Positions 91 to 44,227 of a stretch of 45,816 nucleotides of DNA are shown here, piece by piece. Position 1 is the first letter of the stretch. Each line of letters begins with the position of its first letter. The position numbers were made by a program, and so were the translations under genes. Origin of the DNA: a virus; IMG/VR virus record IMGVR_UViG_3300044695_001680, positions 1-45,816 of that record. The stretch is one strand, 5' to 3'. Below the pieces are notes generated by a model that was not told the origin of the DNA, searched no databases, and saw only the letters and a list, made by a program, of their open reading frames with translations.

Positions 91-846
91 TTAGGCAGCA
101 ATTGCTTTCTTGTTATTGTATCCGCTGAACTGTTTATTCTTGCGGCGTGCAATAATAGCCTTGCCCCAATCGCTACCCTTTGGCTGTGTGCCATGAACTA
201 GTAGCGCAAAGGGTTGATCACCGAAACAATGTGAATCATCATGATCAACTTCTAGGCCCACAGCATTAGCCTGTTCTTCAAACATGAACACCTTGCTATA
301 GCGTTTGAAGTATCCCTGCTCGATCAATTGATCATGCTTGCCACCGTATGATGCGGTCATGTAGAAATTATCAGGCAACGCAAGATCAAGAAAGAATGAA
401 AGACTCTTAGAGTAGCAGTAGAACTTTAAATCAGGGTTGCGTTCTGCTACCCTTACCCATGCTTGAAGATACGCAAGAGAAAAGAAGTCGCCGGACTCAT
501 GAATGCGCACCAGCTGTGTATGCTTGGTTCTGTGTGATGCAATGCTCCTTTCCAAGAGATGTACACAGAGATCAACACTATGAGAGAGAGACTCAACAAT
601 GCGTTGTAGATTCTCAGCGCGAGAATTATAGACTGCGTCATATTGAACCTCAGATGATGCTGCAAAACAACGGAAGATTGTGTCCTTGCTATCTTGAATT
701 GTTTGCTTGCCGTCATCATTAACTACAGCAAACGCCTTGCAATACATTGCGCCAGGACATGTACGTCCTGCAGGTAATGAGAAGATTAGAGTATGCTTGC
801 CGAGCTTTGCATTACCCTTTGAAAAGTTAAGCAATTGGAGAGACAT
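91..846 (-). CDS. Conserved phage protein, possibly GP88-like, function unknown
   Basis: A 251-residue protein. The ATG at 846 is chosen over an upstream in-frame start because AAGGAG lies just before it. The N-terminus has the pattern NFSKGNAKLGKHTLIFSLPAG followed by CPGAMYC, so two cysteines close together after a Gly/Pro turn, as in phage proteins of the GP88 type; the assignment is from memory of the pattern and is tentative. The rest is soluble with no membrane segment. It is the largest gene in the early block and is followed immediately by a terminator. The 37-nt gap to the gene upstream (884-1114) contains a leader motif also found before the 1151-1372 gene. No enzymatic role can be stated from sequence alone. 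Confidence 0.8.
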   Translation of the reverse strand: MSLQLLNFSKGNAKLGKHTLIFSLPAGRTCPGAMYCKAFAVVNDDGKQTIQDSKDTIFRCFAASSEVQYDAVYNSRAENLQRIVESLSHSVDLCVHLLERSIASHRTKHTQLVRIHESGDFFSLAYLQAWVRVAERNPDLKFYCYSKSLSFFLDLALPDNFYMTASYGGKHDQLIEQGYFKRYSKVFMFEEQANAVGLEVDHDDSHCFGDQPFALLVHGTQPKGSDWGKAIIARRKNKQFSGYNNKKAIAA

Positions 847-883
847 CGGTGGGCTCCTTGTTTGTTGTGATGAGTGGAAGTGG

Positions 884-1114
884 TTAAGCAAACTCTAGAA
901 CTTCACAGGCAATAACAAACTCTGATTCAATGCCAAAGAACTCAGCGAGATCATCAGAGTTCATTGATTCAATCAATGCCTCATCCACGTCCTTGATGAT
1001 GACTTGATGTGTGCCATCATCTTGTGGGAATGCTGTATCAAACACACCATCCTCCATGTATTCGGAGATCGGTGCATCTTCGTCTAATGTGAAGCGTAGG
1101 TTGAGTGTTTCCAT
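884..1114 (-). CDS. Small acidic early protein, unknown
   Basis: A 76-residue, strongly acidic protein (many Asp/Glu, e.g. LDEDAPISEYMEDG). Its small size, acidity and place in the presumed first-transcribed block fit an early host-takeover or anti-restriction protein of the DNA-mimic sort, but no family is recognised. The start context AACATGGAAAC is almost identical to that of the gene upstream (1151-1372). The leader lacks a good Shine-Dalgarno sequence. Confidence 0.7.
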   Translation of the reverse strand: METLNLRFTLDEDAPISEYMEDGVFDTAFPQDDGTHQVIIKDVDEALIESMNSDDLAEFFGIESEFVIACEVLEFA

Positions 1115-2359: not shown

Positions 2360-3049
2360 TCAGTCATCACTCCACATCGCCTCACAAACATCCGGTATTT
2401 GCGAATAGAGAATGTCTTGAATTTGACCAGCAATCACTGCGTGTTCCTTCTGTGTGCCATTAGCAGTCCTAAGATCACAATAATGCAACCAAGAGCGAAT
2501 CGATCCATTCATGTACAGCTTGGTTGGAGCAGCCAATGGCAGGACTTCTCTGGCACATTCTTTAGCAATACCAGCATCCAGCATGTCTCGATACAACCGA
2601 TAACTATGCACGTAGTGCTTAGCAATCTCAACCTCAAACTTCTTAGCCAACACCTCATCCAGATCATCCACACTGTTCTGTCGATTCTTCAGATCCTGTG
2701 TCCTTAGATGTGGGATCTCTGGCATTTCAGTTACTGCTGCATAGCGTTGACTGAACTCTTGAAAGCTGAAGCTACGGTGTCTAAGGATCTGAGCTGCAAT
2801 ACTGCGAGTTGTCTCAATCTCTACGCACATATTAACCATTTCAAACGGGGACCAATGTTGATGCTCGATTAGATACCTAATGAGTTTTGGTGCTGAGGTA
2901 GTGTTTGATTGGTTAGAGGGGTTAGACACCCTGGCCATGTAAGAGATGAGGTCTTCAGCGTTGGGAGTGATGTGGATGAGTGATGCCGTATGGGTCATTG
3001 AGTAGCTACTGGTTGGAATTTTTAGTAATAAGAATGAATCCTGTATCAT
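2360..3049 (-). CDS. thyX: Flavin-dependent thymidylate synthase ThyX
   Basis: ThyX methylates dUMP to dTMP using FAD, NADPH and methylene-tetrahydrofolate, supplying thymidylate for phage DNA synthesis. The protein (229 residues from this start) carries the diagnostic motif RHRSFSFQEFSQRY near residues 90-103, matching RHRxxSxxxxSxRY, which binds FAD and dUMP. The ATG at 3049 is preceded by GAAGGG at good distance; an in-frame ATG at 2998, without a ribosome site, would remove 17 residues and begin at the conserved core. The ribosome site of the 3049 start lies in the loop and 3' arm of a hairpin (3054-3073), one of three with the same loop. ThyX is common in cyanophages, but its place after terminase, away from the nucleotide genes at 30-33 kb, is notable. 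Confidence 0.95.
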   Translation of the reverse strand: MIQDSFLLLKIPTSSYSMTHTASLIHITPNAEDLISYMARVSNPSNQSNTTSAPKLIRYLIEHQHWSPFEMVNMCVEIETTRSIAAQILRHRSFSFQEFSQRYAAVTEMPEIPHLRTQDLKNRQNSVDDLDEVLAKKFEVEIAKHYVHSYRLYRDMLDAGIAKECAREVLPLAAPTKLYMNGSIRSWLHYCDLRTANGTQKEHAVIAGQIQDILYSQIPDVCEAMWSDD

Positions 3050-3053
3050 TCAG

Positions 3054-3073
3054 ATGGCCCTTCAAGAGGCCAT
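3054..3073 (-). promoter_or_regulatory. Common-loop hairpin 1, over the thyX ribosome site
   Basis: On the minus strand ATGGCC / GGCCAT (6 bp) encloses the 8-nt loop TCTTGAAG. The GAAGGG that serves the ATG at 3049 spans the end of the loop and the 3' arm, so folding would hide it. Same loop as the hairpins at 3145-3166 and 3226-3247, with a different stem. Confidence 0.7.
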
Positions 3074-3144
3074 TCAGATGATCTCGATTCAGTCTTCCTC
3101 TAATTCAATTTCTAATTAATAAATTAAAGGAGATTGGATTAAGA

Positions 3145-3166
3145 GATATCCATTCAAGAGGATATC
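3145..3166 (-). promoter_or_regulatory. Common-loop hairpin 2
   Basis: GATATCC / GGATATC (7 bp, perfect) around the 8-nt loop TCTTGAAT on the minus strand. The stem shares no sequence with hairpins 1 and 3 but the loop does, the pattern expected of a structure kept by selection. Confidence 0.75.
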
Positions 3167-3225
3167 CAAGATCCACTACTAGTTGAATTACTATTTTGTG
3201 TCTTTTGATTTACTAGTACTCACGG

Positions 3226-3247
3226 GATGTCAATTCAAGATGACATC
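3226..3247 (-). promoter_or_regulatory. Common-loop hairpin 3
   Basis: GATGTCA / TGACATC (7 bp, perfect) around the 8-nt loop TCTTGAAT on the minus strand. It lies 110 nt after the terminase stop codon and 81 nt from the centre of hairpin 2. Confidence 0.75.
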
Positions 3248-3356
3248 TATAGAGGGGGAGTTGGGGATCACGTCTACGTGAGACACGACTCCCCATTGTC
3301 TTCCCGCTCCCGCTTATAGTGTCGGGTCAACCAGAAGCCTTCCAATGACTAGTGTC

Positions 3357-5102
3357 TTAAAGTGAGACCCATTTAATACTGCGCCTTGGATTTGTGGCTC
3401 CTCTAGCGGTTCTGCGTTGCTCCAGATCGAAGCCCATCACAAGGTGGTTAGCGGCGCTCTGGGGGTCATCCATCCAGGAGTCGAGCATGTCCTGCCAATC
3501 TTCCATCCGACGTTGTTTCACGGTCTCGTGGGCGCTGATGGACATGGCATCAGTGAAGTATTTAACGCCTTGGGCTAGGGAGTCCAATCTGTCGTCATGT
3601 TTAACGGCACCTTTCTCCCGGCACATGCGGGACATCTGGTAGAAGAGCATGTAGAGCAGGCGATCTTCTGGTGGGGCATCTTTATTGGAGGCGTAATCCC
3701 ACTCCACGACACCACGATCAAAGATCAAGCGGTGTTGGTTCATGACCGGCTCTAGGGCATCGATGATGCGGTCCTCTTTCCTTACATTAGCTCGCACCTC
3801 TTCAACATCTATGGCTTGTTTGGTTTGTTGGAGGTGTTTCTTAAAGAGTTCAGCAACGATGCCATCACCAAAGTTGGTCTCAATGAGCAGTTTGGTGACG
3901 TTATACTTCTTGCAACCTCTCAGGATATCAAGGAGGGTGGCGTCGCTGTAACCATCACGGAATGCACGGACTTCATGGACATAGAGGAAGCCATTGCGTT
4001 GGGAGATGTAGGTAGCTGCTGTTTCGTCAGTACCACGACCTGAGGGGTCAACGGAGCAGATGGTTTCAGTGTATGGACCCCACTCACCTTGGAGTTGCAT
4101 TGGTGAGTAGAAGTAGTCCGCCGGTAGGCCAACTGTAGGCAAGTCTTTGAGGATATTGCGAGGATCGCTGCACCACACCACAGCATCTGGTGCTTGAGTT
4201 GGGTTAACTGAGGTGACAACAAGGTCGGAGAACTTAAGTGGGAACTTCTCAGCGTCACTTAGCGCAGTATCAAGCTGGAATTGAAGCATGAAGTTGCTTC
4301 TACCCATGGCTGCTTCTCGTTCCAGCAGATCATCATCCTTAAATCGATCAGGATCAGTGGGAGACCACTCCTCTACTCCCATCTCGATGTCTTCTACGAT
4401 TTGTGGAGCGAGAAGACCTTCGTATTGGGAGAGCTTGTCTTTACGTGGATACCTAGACGGCCAGACAAAGGGACGGTAGTTACGCTCAGCTAGTTTGCGG
4501 TAGATGGTGAAGGTAGTCTGAGGTGTACCGAGGTACATGATTCGACTGTCCTTCTTTGGTGTGAGGATGGATTCAGCTTCGGTGCAGAGTTGAAGAAGCT
4601 TCTCTCGCATCATTTCAGTCATTGAGTTACCAGGAACTTCAATGTCATCAAGAATCATGAGGTCAGCACGAGAACCCGTAAGTTGTCCTGTAATACCGAC
4701 ACTCTTTACGGAAGGTGCTTGGTGAGGGGAGCAGTTCACATCAAAGGAAATACGAGACCAACGGGAGTCATCCGACTTTGGTTTTAGATGGCTTAGCCAT
4801 GGGGTCTCGATGATCAGCTTCTGAAGGAAGATTGACATGTTGTCAGCTCGTTCCTTAGAGGCTGAGATGATCATGATCTTCTTCTCTGGATTGTTAAAGA
4901 GTGTCCAGAGAACGAAGGCACCAGTGATCCAGCTTTTACCGACTCCTCGGAAGGCTTGGATCTGAAGACGTTTCGGACCGCTTTGTAGGTAGTCAGCGAT
5001 GGCGTATTGAGCACGAGTTGGGGAGGGAAGATCAAGCTGCTGCCACAGGGCTTGGAGAAACAGCTTGAAATCGTCCCTGAGGGCCGTTAAAACATCACTC
5101 AT
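3357..5102 (-). CDS. terL: Terminase large subunit (T7 gp19-like)
   Basis: The packaging motor: an N-terminal ATPase that drives DNA into the prohead and a C-terminal nuclease that cuts concatemers. The Walker A motif FRGVGKSW is near residue 54, Walker B LMILDDIE near 150, and an RNase H-fold nuclease acidic motif SVDPSGRGTDE near 353. About 581 residues from the ATG at 5102, close to T7 gp19. Alternative in-frame ATGs exist at 5114 and 5147; none has a good ribosome site. A stem with a short T-run (5117-5146) lies in the leader if the 5102 start is right and could moderate expression. Preceded by a disordered protein (5176-6471), two HNH-type proteins and the presumed small subunit. Confidence 0.95.
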   Translation of the reverse strand: MSDVLTALRDDFKLFLQALWQQLDLPSPTRAQYAIADYLQSGPKRLQIQAFRGVGKSWITGAFVLWTLFNNPEKKIMIISASKERADNMSIFLQKLIIETPWLSHLKPKSDDSRWSRISFDVNCSPHQAPSVKSVGITGQLTGSRADLMILDDIEVPGNSMTEMMREKLLQLCTEAESILTPKKDSRIMYLGTPQTTFTIYRKLAERNYRPFVWPSRYPRKDKLSQYEGLLAPQIVEDIEMGVEEWSPTDPDRFKDDDLLEREAAMGRSNFMLQFQLDTALSDAEKFPLKFSDLVVTSVNPTQAPDAVVWCSDPRNILKDLPTVGLPADYFYSPMQLQGEWGPYTETICSVDPSGRGTDETAATYISQRNGFLYVHEVRAFRDGYSDATLLDILRGCKKYNVTKLLIETNFGDGIVAELFKKHLQQTKQAIDVEEVRANVRKEDRIIDALEPVMNQHRLIFDRGVVEWDYASNKDAPPEDRLLYMLFYQMSRMCREKGAVKHDDRLDSLAQGVKYFTDAMSISAHETVKQRRMEDWQDMLDSWMDDPQSAANHLVMGFDLEQRRTARGATNPRRSIKWVSL

Positions 5103-5175
5103 AGGGGAAGGCATGGAAAAGCCCCCACAGGCGTGCTGCAGGGGCATATAGAGGGGTCTCAGCGTTAATTAAAGG

Positions 5176-40240: not shown

Positions 40241-42573
40241 TAACAAAAAAAGTAGGTTGATTCAAGGACGGAATCGAGATCCAAATCACCAATGACTGGT
40301 GGCTCGGTCTCGGCGCCAATTGCCTTAGCAAATTCAATCAATGGATTGCTTTCGCTAAAGATGTCGTAGTAGGTCTCCCGTACTACACGATTGAGTTCAC
40401 CCATGTCTGTTGCCCTGCAAAGGACTGAGTCATGGATGACAGTGAACGGAGCGTTGAACTTCAGGAATGCACGATGCAGGATCGATGCATCGATTGAGTG
40501 GATCAGGTTTGGTGCTGTGCTGGATTTGTGACCATTAACATCTGGGCCTTCAGGACTATCTTCAAGTTTGATCTTGCATGTCCCTAGGATTTCCAGTTCA
40601 ACTCGTTTGTACGAGTACTTCCGCCTGTTCTGCTTAACGACAAATCCAGACGGTGTCACCCATTGCAATCGGTCTACTCCACGCTTAAACGCAGCACCCA
40701 CCTCCTGTTTGATCCAATCCATCACCCGCATCGGGCCAGGCACAACCTCATACATCGCTTCTCTGACTGCGTTGACAATGAGTGTCAATTCATCAGGAGT
40801 AAACTCAGCACCCTTTTCTTTCAGTGCCTCACGGATGTAAGCCCTGTTGGAATGCTTTGTAGCGTTGTATGGGATGGTCATGACTGTTCTCTTTGTGACC
40901 TTCCGATCTAAGAGAGCAGCGAGGTGTTCAGGCAGCTTCGGCTTTGCTGCTTCTGCTACCACCTTGTATGCATCACTAGGACAGTCTGCTGGTAATACAT
41001 TGACCAGTTGTGCTGTCGATTGATCTCTAGCTAAACCTGCAAGAATCTGTAGGCCGCTACAGGTTGCATCGACTGCAACTGGTAATGATGTCCAACTTCG
41101 TGAGCACTCAATGACACACGAGTTGTATTCTTCGCAAGCTGCAATGAACTGCCAGGGTTCAGATACCCCTTCCCATTCACATAAATTGCCAAGTGGATCG
41201 GTTGCGACACGAGAGATCAGGCTGTGATTGGCCGTGACCCACTCCTGTCGTTCCTGCATTGTGGCCTTGTCTAGGCCGTATGTCGTGGCAACCTGGAAAG
41301 CCAACCAGCCTTCAGCTTCGTCAGTCATGAAGCTTGGTTCAGCAAACTTCAACAACGACTTGCCAAAGTCTGTATCGTGTGGGGTAAGAAATGCAGGGAT
41401 GAAATAGCATCTCCCTCTGTAGTCAAAAGACGCAGGTAAGTAGAACCTCTCTTTCTCCTTGAACATCCCCACAGTCTGCATGGTCATCCTCGTTCTGCAG
41501 GAGCGTTTAAAACTCGCTGCATTCTGATTCATGACTTCCGCTGCAGCACGACGGTATTCGTGCCTGGCTTCCTCATTCTCCGCAATGTCCCAAGGTTTGT
41601 TGGGCAGCGGTAGCTCCACAATTGGTAGGAACTTTCCCACCTTGCAGCCTCGCTCAAGTAGCGTCTCAGCTACCTCGATCACAAATGTGTTGAGCGTGTA
41701 GGCGACCTTCTGGAGCTTGTTCAGAAACAGGAGAGGTGTGTTCCCCTGTATTAGTGTCGGGTCTCCCCTGCGGACCATTTCATGACCGTTCATGACCTCA
41801 TTGGTCAGGTATCCACCGGACTTGATCGGTGACCAATCTCGCGGTGGGACCAGCATGGGCCACGCCATCGGAGCGAACATCAACGCATCCTTCATCAGCT
41901 CCTCTTTCTGCATCGCAAATAGGAGTGATGGCACCACCAATGTCGGTGTGCCCTTGCCTCTGACCACTGTGATGCGATCAAACCAGCCTGTGGTACGCAT
42001 CACGCAGTCCAGCAGCCAGCCGCCCAGCTTGGCCCGCACAATGCCTCCCCACGTCTGCCAGTGGTAGTCATTGCGGTTCATCATTGTTCTGGCCACCGTG
42101 GCCTTCTGCTGGGTGCCACAGGCGCTGTGCCAGTAGCTCCTCCTGATGCGGTCCATCAGATCCGCATCTTGATTTTCGTACCACCGGATCTGTGCTTCCT
42201 GCTCTAGGGCATGTCCGATCCCGTTGATCACATTGGCAATCTCATTGGCTCGGTCCTTGGGGGAGAAGACCTTGTCGAACGTGAGCTTGAGAGCAATCGT
42301 GGCGGCAGCTTCAGGTTCGATCTGCTCCAGGTACTGGTGGATCGTTGCAAAGTCCCGCCCGTTGTGCCCTTTGTGGATCCTCTGCACCGTCTCCTCAATG
42401 GTCTTGGCCACCTCCGGTACGGCTGCTGAGATGCTGGCGCAGCCATAGACGGTGGCTGATGCGTAGGTGCGTTCCTCCAATTTGCGGGTGTTATCCAGGA
42501 GACGCTCACGGCCACAGGCAATGGCGCGGCGCTCCAATGCGAGCTGCTCATCGATCTGAGCTGGTGTTGGCAT
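40240..42573 (-). CDS. Single-subunit RNA polymerase (T7 gp1-like)
   Basis: A 777-residue phage RNA polymerase, shorter than T7's 883. Palm motif A is PVAVDATCSGLQ (about residue 500, catalytic Asp), the fingers motif VTKRTVMTIPYNA (about 564, with the Lys and Tyr of T7 K631/Y639), and motif C VIHDSVLCR (about 712, catalytic Asp). It transcribes the replication and structural genes downstream. Preceded by the attP-bearing gap; its own stop overlaps the SSB start. Confidence 0.97.
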   Translation of the reverse strand: MPTPAQIDEQLALERRAIACGRERLLDNTRKLEERTYASATVYGCASISAAVPEVAKTIEETVQRIHKGHNGRDFATIHQYLEQIEPEAAATIALKLTFDKVFSPKDRANEIANVINGIGHALEQEAQIRWYENQDADLMDRIRRSYWHSACGTQQKATVARTMMNRNDYHWQTWGGIVRAKLGGWLLDCVMRTTGWFDRITVVRGKGTPTLVVPSLLFAMQKEELMKDALMFAPMAWPMLVPPRDWSPIKSGGYLTNEVMNGHEMVRRGDPTLIQGNTPLLFLNKLQKVAYTLNTFVIEVAETLLERGCKVGKFLPIVELPLPNKPWDIAENEEARHEYRRAAAEVMNQNAASFKRSCRTRMTMQTVGMFKEKERFYLPASFDYRGRCYFIPAFLTPHDTDFGKSLLKFAEPSFMTDEAEGWLAFQVATTYGLDKATMQERQEWVTANHSLISRVATDPLGNLCEWEGVSEPWQFIAACEEYNSCVIECSRSWTSLPVAVDATCSGLQILAGLARDQSTAQLVNVLPADCPSDAYKVVAEAAKPKLPEHLAALLDRKVTKRTVMTIPYNATKHSNRAYIREALKEKGAEFTPDELTLIVNAVREAMYEVVPGPMRVMDWIKQEVGAAFKRGVDRLQWVTPSGFVVKQNRRKYSYKRVELEILGTCKIKLEDSPEGPDVNGHKSSTAPNLIHSIDASILHRAFLKFNAPFTVIHDSVLCRATDMGELNRVVRETYYDIFSESNPLIEFAKAIGAETEPPVIGDLDLDSVLESTYFFC

Positions 42574-42848: not shown

Positions 42849-43727
42849 TCATATCGCTTTGATCGCGTCGACCCTGGCCTGGTCCGTAACCTTTGCATAT
42901 CGTAACGTTGTTTCAATATTGGCATGTCCCATCAGACCCATCAGCGTTCTTAATGGAACACCCGCTTCCGCGCACCATGTGGCAAAGGAATGGCGCAGGG
43001 AATGGAAGGCCCAACTGTCGTCTTTCTTTACAGAGTAATTCCTTACTTTTTTGAACGCACGAATCAGCTGATCCTTGCCACCAGGCCAATCATCTCCAAA
43101 CACCAGTGTGTCCCTGCGGGCATATTCGCAGCGGTGATGCAATAGCTCCTGGATGCGTGCATGAATCGGCACACTGCGGAAGTTCTTGGCTTTCGTTTCA
43201 AAGCCCTCCCGACCACCGACATACAACTGCTGGGTGCCCAGATCAATATCCTGCACCCTGAGCTTCAATAGCTCTCCCTGACGCAATCCGGTGTACGCAG
43301 CCGTCACGACGATGGCCGCCACATCATCACGCTCGTAGGGGTCGATGGCGGCCTGGTAGAGCGTCTCCACCTCCGGCTTGGTGAACCATGTCAGCCGGTG
43401 CTCCCCCTCCTTGCGGCGTTGGAACCGCGGGGGTGTGAACTCGATCACGCCCATCGCTTGGCAGTGGTTCAGCACGGTGGAGACCGCACTGATCACCCGG
43501 TTGATGGTCGAGCTGGACATCTGCCGCTCATCTTCCAGATCAATCGCCACCTGATTGATGACAAGTGGTGTGATTTTTATGAGTGGAAATGAATTGCCAA
43601 TCGCATTGGTGATGTGCTGGCAGTTGTACATGTTGGTCGGCCGTGAATTGCCGTGTCGCCAGGCGTCCCTGGTCTTGAAGGTGAAGTCGACCGCTTCCCC
43701 CCATGTCTTGACTGGTTCAGTTCTCAT
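42849..43727 (-). CDS. int: Tyrosine site-specific recombinase (integrase)
   Basis: A 292-residue lambda-type integrase. The N-terminal half has a core-binding helix bundle; the catalytic domain has Arg in AAYTGLRQGELL (about residue 146), HSLRHSFATW (about 244, His and Arg), GLMGHAN (His, about 266) and the nucleophile in LRYAKV (Tyr, about 276). All catalytic residues are intact. It would recombine the adjacent tRNA-Leu half with the host gene. Its start overlaps the MarR-like gene by 11 nt. Confidence 0.96.
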   Translation of the reverse strand: MRTEPVKTWGEAVDFTFKTRDAWRHGNSRPTNMYNCQHITNAIGNSFPLIKITPLVINQVAIDLEDERQMSSSTINRVISAVSTVLNHCQAMGVIEFTPPRFQRRKEGEHRLTWFTKPEVETLYQAAIDPYERDDVAAIVVTAAYTGLRQGELLKLRVQDIDLGTQQLYVGGREGFETKAKNFRSVPIHARIQELLHHRCEYARRDTLVFGDDWPGGKDQLIRAFKKVRNYSVKKDDSWAFHSLRHSFATWCAEAGVPLRTLMGLMGHANIETTLRYAKVTDQARVDAIKAI

Positions 43728-44085
43728 TGAGAATCTCCTTGATTTGGTTGACCATGATCTGACCCTTTGGTGTTAAGCCCACAAGCCTCAGCCGGTAATC
43801 AAATGGGTCTCTCTTTTTATAGATCAAACCCATCCCAGGCTTACCCAGACGATGATGCGAGCTTAACCAATCAGTGTTTCGACTTGTGCTATTTGGTGAT
43901 AGACCAAGTGCTTGCTGTATCGCTTGTAAATTACAAGGATTATGCGAGGCAATGAAGCAAAACACGGATACCAACTGGCCTGGTACTTCAGTGTCTTGTG
44001 TGCGAAACAACTCGTGGATTCGGCATAGTTTCCACATTGTATCGTCCGTCCTCAATTTGAGGAGTGGATTCAAAGTTTCGGACAT
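43717..44085 (-). CDS. MarR-like winged-helix regulator
   Basis: 122 residues from the ATG at 44085; a GTG at 44109 is possible. Pattern of a MarR-type winged helix: LVSVFCFIASHNPCNLQAIQ, QALGLSPNSTSRNTDWLSS (recognition helix), a basic wing KKRDPFDYRLRLVGLTPKG and a C-terminal helix. It lies directly before and overlaps int, so it may control the choice to integrate or the early to middle switch. Confidence 0.8.
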   Translation of the reverse strand: MSETLNPLLKLRTDDTMWKLCRIHELFRTQDTEVPGQLVSVFCFIASHNPCNLQAIQQALGLSPNSTSRNTDWLSSHHRLGKPGMGLIYKKRDPFDYRLRLVGLTPKGQIMVNQIKEILNEN

Positions 44086-44227
44086 TAGGATCTCTGAAGA
44101 ACCAATCACATCCTAACAGTAACCGTCCCACCTGAACCTGAAAGGCTCCGCTGTAGACATGCAGCAGCCATGCAGCACCGCAGCGGTCCCAGCCAACATA
44201 AATCCCAAAGCCGTCGAGCAGTGTCAT
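43988..44227 (-). CDS. Small early protein, unknown
   Basis: A 79-residue protein; the first half (GFGIYVGWDRCGAAWLLHVY, SGAFQVQVGRLLLG) looks like a compact beta-structured domain, while the second half overlaps the MarR-like gene by about 98 nt in another frame. No ribosome site is clear. Not recognised. Confidence 0.6.
   Translation of the reverse strand: MTLLDGFGIYVGWDRCGAAWLLHVYSGAFQVQVGRLLLGCDWFFRDPNVRNFESTPQIEDGRYNVETMPNPRVVSHTRH

Follow-up and report, generated by a model that had tools for sequence, protein, structure and literature searches.

Covarying hairpins behind terL in T7-like cyanophages, a candidate RNA punctuation element

Three hairpins lying between terL and thyX of a T7-like cyanophage, whose closest relatives are S-SRP01, DSL-LC07 and S-CBP3, are real and far above chance, and comparison with relatives suggests that the fold itself is under selection. 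While the structure is established by covariation, the function is one that we infer, and we tentatively favour a role in RNA punctuation. The window, that is, the whole stretch of 45,816 nt that was analysed, carries on its minus strand terL (T7-type terminase large subunit, Pfam PF22530) at 3357..5147, the upstream neighbour of the hairpins, and thyX (Pfam PF02511) at 2360..2998, their downstream neighbour in this genome, which probably starts at 2998. On the same strand, hairpin A (3226..3247, GATGTCA-TCTTGAAT-TGACATC) comes directly after a terminator-like hairpin, and hairpin B (3145..3166, GATATCC-TCTTGAAT-GGATATC) has an outer stem, TGGAT/ATCCA, that extends the element to 3135-3175. 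Hairpin C (3036..3090) is built in three tiers, GAATC/ATCAT/ATGGCC-TCTTGAAG-GGCCAT/ATGAT/GATTC, with internal loops of 3-4 nt; its inner core at 3054-3073 reads, in the sense direction, AATGGCC-TCTTGAAG-GGCCATC, with six pairs and an A-C end (3053/3074).

The original prediction of three hairpins in this gap is thus confirmed at 3226-3247, 3145-3166 and 3053/3054-3073/3074, with the announced spacing of 81 and 92 nt from start to start, and a scan of the remaining window likewise found no other copy. Chance is excluded by shuffling, since 200 dinucleotide shuffles of the full window sequence gave no local triple with at least 7 of 8 loop bases in common, and 20,000 shuffles of the gap alone never yielded even three such hairpins. 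The 293-nt leader folds with a z of -5.3. Searching Rfam with the whole window gave 0 matches, a relaxed search returning just one miRNA model, by chance and well under its cut-off, and no description of the element turned up in the literature covered, outside which most subscription papers fall. The view that the three stems are unrelated has to be abandoned: in the mRNA sense GATGTCA, GATATCC and AATGGCC are each one or two symmetric changes away from RATGTCC, and RATGTCC...GGACATY is the stem of most relatives, of which A, B and C are symmetric-substitution variants.

Pairing was followed through the terL-thyX gaps of relatives and 173 terL-downstream regions, 117 of them distinct. Hairpin A is flanked in relatives by a C-rich T-run before it and by CTGTRAGTAC after it, and when anchored on these flanks it shows 7/7 Watson-Crick pairs in 67/67 distinct regions, with seven arm pairs; the anchor itself required R-A-T and A-T-Y ends, and the independent evidence is therefore that of the inner four pairs only, on which pairing was not imposed. 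Among 30 elements from loci not fetched by motif, all 120 of 120 inner pairs are Watson-Crick, over six arm sequences. The flank pattern went unmatched in 50 of the 117 regions, several of which have other hairpins at that place. For hairpin C, where a MAFFT alignment of all elements misaligned the stems and a narrower set was used instead, the middle and inner stems of 15 flank-anchored relatives are 100% paired and three pairs carry changes on both sides. The inner stem of C is even exchanged among relatives, from ATGGCC/GGCCAT to GATCAAC/GTTGATC or ATGGTC/GACCAT, and its outermost stem, judged by eye only, seems to covary too (GAATC/GATTC, GGAT/ATCC). When 19 distinct hairpins, chosen partly by their pairing, are pooled, the inner stem is paired in 96.2% of cells against at most 44% in slid comparisons, and 5/7 pairs are changed on both sides. 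Compensatory changes, the mark sought of a structured RNA, are hence found at independently anchored homologous positions in both A and C, which upholds the predicted selection on pairing; loss of pairing was not seen wherever flanks anchored A (67 regions) or C (15 relatives). Because relatives alter the letters yet keep the pairing, it is the fold itself that appears to matter.

The loops tell a different story. One loop at all three positions is indeed what the window has (TCTTGAAT, TCTTGAAT and TCTTGAAG on the minus strand, which is the coding sense), but the claim does not extend to the family. The most common loop at A in relatives is CTGGGAAT, others including CCGGGAAT, TCGTGAAT and CCGTGAAT, while TCTTGAAT is found at C in a few relatives. 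One relative (L155) carries CCGTGAAT at both A and C, another (L075) keeps TCTTGAAT at C through an exchanged stem, and in most relatives the loops of A and C differ from each other. Loop drift, named beforehand as an argument against the element, has thus partly taken place, with loops varying between phages and replaced in some A elements by loops of 17-37 nt. Given this drift, invariance of the TCTTGAA loop is a local trait of this lineage, and pairing is the feature of the family. A scan of viral sequences with a 14-base TCTTGAAT pattern gave mostly chance matches among those listed, of which few (L198, L218, L283) were true and linked to terL. The complement of the loop, ATTCAAGA, occurs on the sense strand at few sites (692, 2415, 17192 and 32928). 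In L021, otherwise near-identical to the window, the B loop is interrupted between TC and TGAA by a palindrome of 22 nt; inserts of this kind, for instance AGCGAACGAAGTGAGCGGG and AGCGAGGCGTAAGCCGAGCGGG, occupy this place in L021, L008, L075 and L082, and L010, L011 and L085 also have, in their gaps, GCGAAGC-type sequences that resemble them.

The gene that the element tracks is terL. In an IMG/VR search with the consensus, 75/76 matches lay just 3′ of terL and on its strand; tblastn detected no thyX on several contigs with hairpin A, some of them short, and no full-quality copy was found outside the terL-downstream gap in four whole genomes scanned. Riboregulation of thyX was consequently rejected as the main reading, as hairpin A also lies behind terL on such contigs without detected thyX. 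A host-derived element was rejected as well, since searching 257 Gb of genomes gave 16 matches, about as many as chance would. The match in a cyanobacterial contig of Synechococcus sp. UW140 (NZ_UCOB01000003.1, L313:4643-5128) is not host-derived, since it is a decayed piece of the phage terL-thyX region, a cyanopodovirus fragment containing the 3′ end of terL, the promoter-like site, the hairpins and the 5′ end of thyX.

The window contains TTGACCCGACACTATAAGCGGGAG (3307..3330, minus strand) some 25-30 nt past the terL stop; judging from its sequence, this is probably a promoter used by the phage RNA polymerase. A second promoter-like copy, GACCCGACACTAATACAGGGG (41742..41765, minus strand), is located inside the RNA polymerase gene. 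Such pairs, with one member in the gap (25-35 nt past the terL stop), one in the polymerase gene and no other close copy, are present in four genomes (the window, S-SRP01, S-B28 and S-CBP3), the word varying between phages and matching within each, to the extent of 18 shared nt in S-CBP3. T7 has a phage-RNA-polymerase promoter, phiOR, behind gene 19 (terL) and near its right end. On sequence grounds, a probable promoter of this kind is found behind terL here too; the two regions are alike in this position near the right end, their sequences are unrelated, and we know of no comparable covarying hairpin array described at T7 phiOR. In Syn5, ATTGGGCACCCGTAA, which we take to be the 15-nt sequence of one of the two promoters of that phage, stands right behind terL, in the same place as the promoter-like site of the window, and is followed by CAAGAGA-AGTGGTGC-TCTCTTG and a terminator-like hairpin; a RATGTCC-type hairpin A was not found in Syn5. 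P-SSP7 has the same order of promoter-like site, hairpin, terminator-like hairpin and AATATC-CGTGAAT-GATATT, ~1.3-1.4 kb from its right end. The position of the array just 3′ of the promoter-like site, together with these two layouts, puts it in the leader of what is probably a right-end transcript. The Syn5 report (PMC3950665) gives only two promoters for that phage's polymerase, and the passages of it that were covered do not discuss the hairpins.

Between the promoter-like site and A, a promoter-proximal G+C-rich hairpin (3254..3294, minus strand; GGGGAGT...ACTCCCC then CTCTAT) stands where relatives have their terminator-like hairpin, in which the T-run is better; a canonical T-run is absent from it and a simple terminator scan made no call there. 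In 98 of the 117 distinct regions (L010, L016, L299 and others), a hairpin with the loop (A)AGGGTGGA lies directly behind the promoter-like site, within ~100 nt after terL. Its loop is invariant, its stem is variable and covarying, and a terminator-like hairpin with a T-run follows, the whole looking in outline like a short phage RNA. This hairpin is missing from the clade to which the window belongs.

Whether the folded molecule is RNA or DNA is not decided by the inner stems of A, B and C, since they contain almost no wobble pairs (G-U intermediates in 1 of 133 cells). Such scarcity is unusual for RNA and equally compatible with DNA folding, and it stands against the RNA reading; moreover, both strands of the element fold similarly. 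In the 5′ hairpin with the loop AGGGTGGA, present in most relatives, the non-Watson-Crick pairs of 64 distinct stems, read on the sense strand, comprise 42 G-U against 11 A-C, a wobble pattern that favours sense RNA for the whole segment. The outer stem of A shows 50 G-T against 6 A-C, counts that reflect conserved sequence and not many independent changes.

The reading that we favour, though with less than even confidence, is structured RNA punctuation in the right-end transcript, placed between the late and the right-end transcripts; RNA would be the folded molecule, and processing or stability its presumed role. In this view, the right end of T7-like cyanophage genomes would hold a conserved, untranslated stretch with a defined structure, to which hairpins A to C belong. 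The right-end transcript would start at a second phage-RNA-polymerase promoter, ~30 nt behind terL, and late transcripts that begin at the promoter within the polymerase gene would read through the same stretch, the order in both being promoter-proximal hairpin, terminator-like hairpin, then A, B and C. Hairpin A and the terminator-like hairpin may mark and protect the 3′ end of late mRNA, and A to C, with AU-rich spacers between them, may protect the downstream (thyX) mRNA on its 5′ side once an endonuclease has cut. Among the roles suggested in the original prediction, the location agrees best with a processing signal where late mRNA ends, while an sRNA sponge and a protein-binding array gained no positive evidence. 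We also count in favour of RNA punctuation that the MarR protein of P-SSP7 raises host RNase E (PMC9692554). An array of intrinsic terminators is not what A, B and C look like: they are followed by CCGTGAG, TCTTAA and CTGAAT, without the T-run that should come directly after a G+C-rich stem, and a terminator scan found none among them. A terminator role of the hairpins is in any case uncertain, because Syn5 RNA polymerase passed a T7 terminator in vitro (PMC3950665). It is also conceivable, although we hold it to be unlikely, that the 5′ hairpin with the loop AGGGTGGA, the terminator-like hairpin and A with its copies make up an undescribed ncRNA module behind terL, driven by the phage RNA polymerase, shared by T7-like cyanophages and acting in trans or in packaging or replication.

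The main rival, doubtful but deserving attention, is a DNA right-end element, in which a promoter and AT-rich hairpin-forming DNA would, like T7 phiOR, act in replication as a secondary origin or take part in concatemer processing or packaging, the hairpins forming in single-stranded or cruciform DNA and being recognised by phage proteins. It would account for a position that follows terL and not thyX, for the near-perfect Watson-Crick pairing without G-U and for the phage-promoter-like site; the AT-richest 250 nt of the window (3001-3250) lie there, and in P-SSP7, whose termini are known from experiment (PMC3350473), ~1.4 kb separates the end of terL from the right one. Yet in S-CBP3 and S-B28 the gap is not the most AT-rich part of the genome and cumulative GC skew makes no consistent turn at it, and the adjacent 5′ hairpin has the RNA-like wobble pattern. 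A replication origin deduced from AT-richness or GC skew was itself rejected as inconsistent across relatives. The palindromes could alternatively be selfish or mutational, kept perfect by template switching in replication (quasipalindrome correction) and functionless, and both the perfect pairing without wobble intermediates and the AGCGAACGAAGTGAGCGGG-type inserts in the B loop agree with this; their constant place behind terL with conserved flanks in many distinct phages, the constraint on outer stems and internal loops, and the lack of further full-quality copies in the four whole genomes scanned make it quite improbable.

Recognition of the TCTTGAAT loop and stem on the thyX transcript by one phage or host RNA-binding protein, in a nut/boxB-like or operator-like array, seems improbable, if less so than a mutational origin. 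The loop common to three positions in this genome, the two CCGTGAAT loops of L155 and the TCTTGAAT kept in L075 despite its exchanged stem would suit such a protein, but not the differing A and C loops of most relatives, the 17-37-nt loops of some A elements or the occurrence of the element on contigs without detected thyX. MarR dimers bind palindromes, and the dyads might thus be dimer sites in double-stranded DNA for a phage MarR-type regulator; the window, at 43717-44109, and S-SRP01 both encode a MarR-like protein homologous to one annotated as MarR-family in S-CBP3, the window protein having no Pfam match. This is very unlikely, as S-B28 has two perfect dyads and no homologue of the protein at E < 1. 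Besides, the arms vary (AATGTCC, AATGAAC, AATGATC, AATGGTC, GATCAAC) while symmetry stays exact, the opposite of what a sequence-reading dimer needs, and no dyad copies lie near marR.

As in RNase III/RNase E punctuation, where bacterial and phage hairpins stabilise or process mRNA, the array places stem-loops and AU-rich spacers between two operons, but it differs in having two or three conserved tiers and in being linked to a promoter by its position. With lambda boxB/nut it shares short conserved-loop hairpins in a phage leader, whereas its loops drift between relatives and no N-like protein is known. T7-like cyanophages occur widely in the sea and in fresh water, and the literature searched describes no role for a conserved folded segment at their second promoter; the array may offer a defined target for the study of late-transcript ending, right-end transcript start or genome-end marking in these phages.

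Further features were observed in the window and in relatives. The word AGACACAA, at 3203 on the minus strand, recurs near terL in the gaps of relatives; considered as a primase-site array, it is gap-enriched, but present in only about half of the gaps. An ORF matching Pfam GP88 (gene product 88) lies near the low end of the window (91-891, minus strand). In L009, L024, L026, L034, L039, L047, L070 and L084, a small ORF with the start MSRT(Y/H)R is located between hairpin C and thyX.
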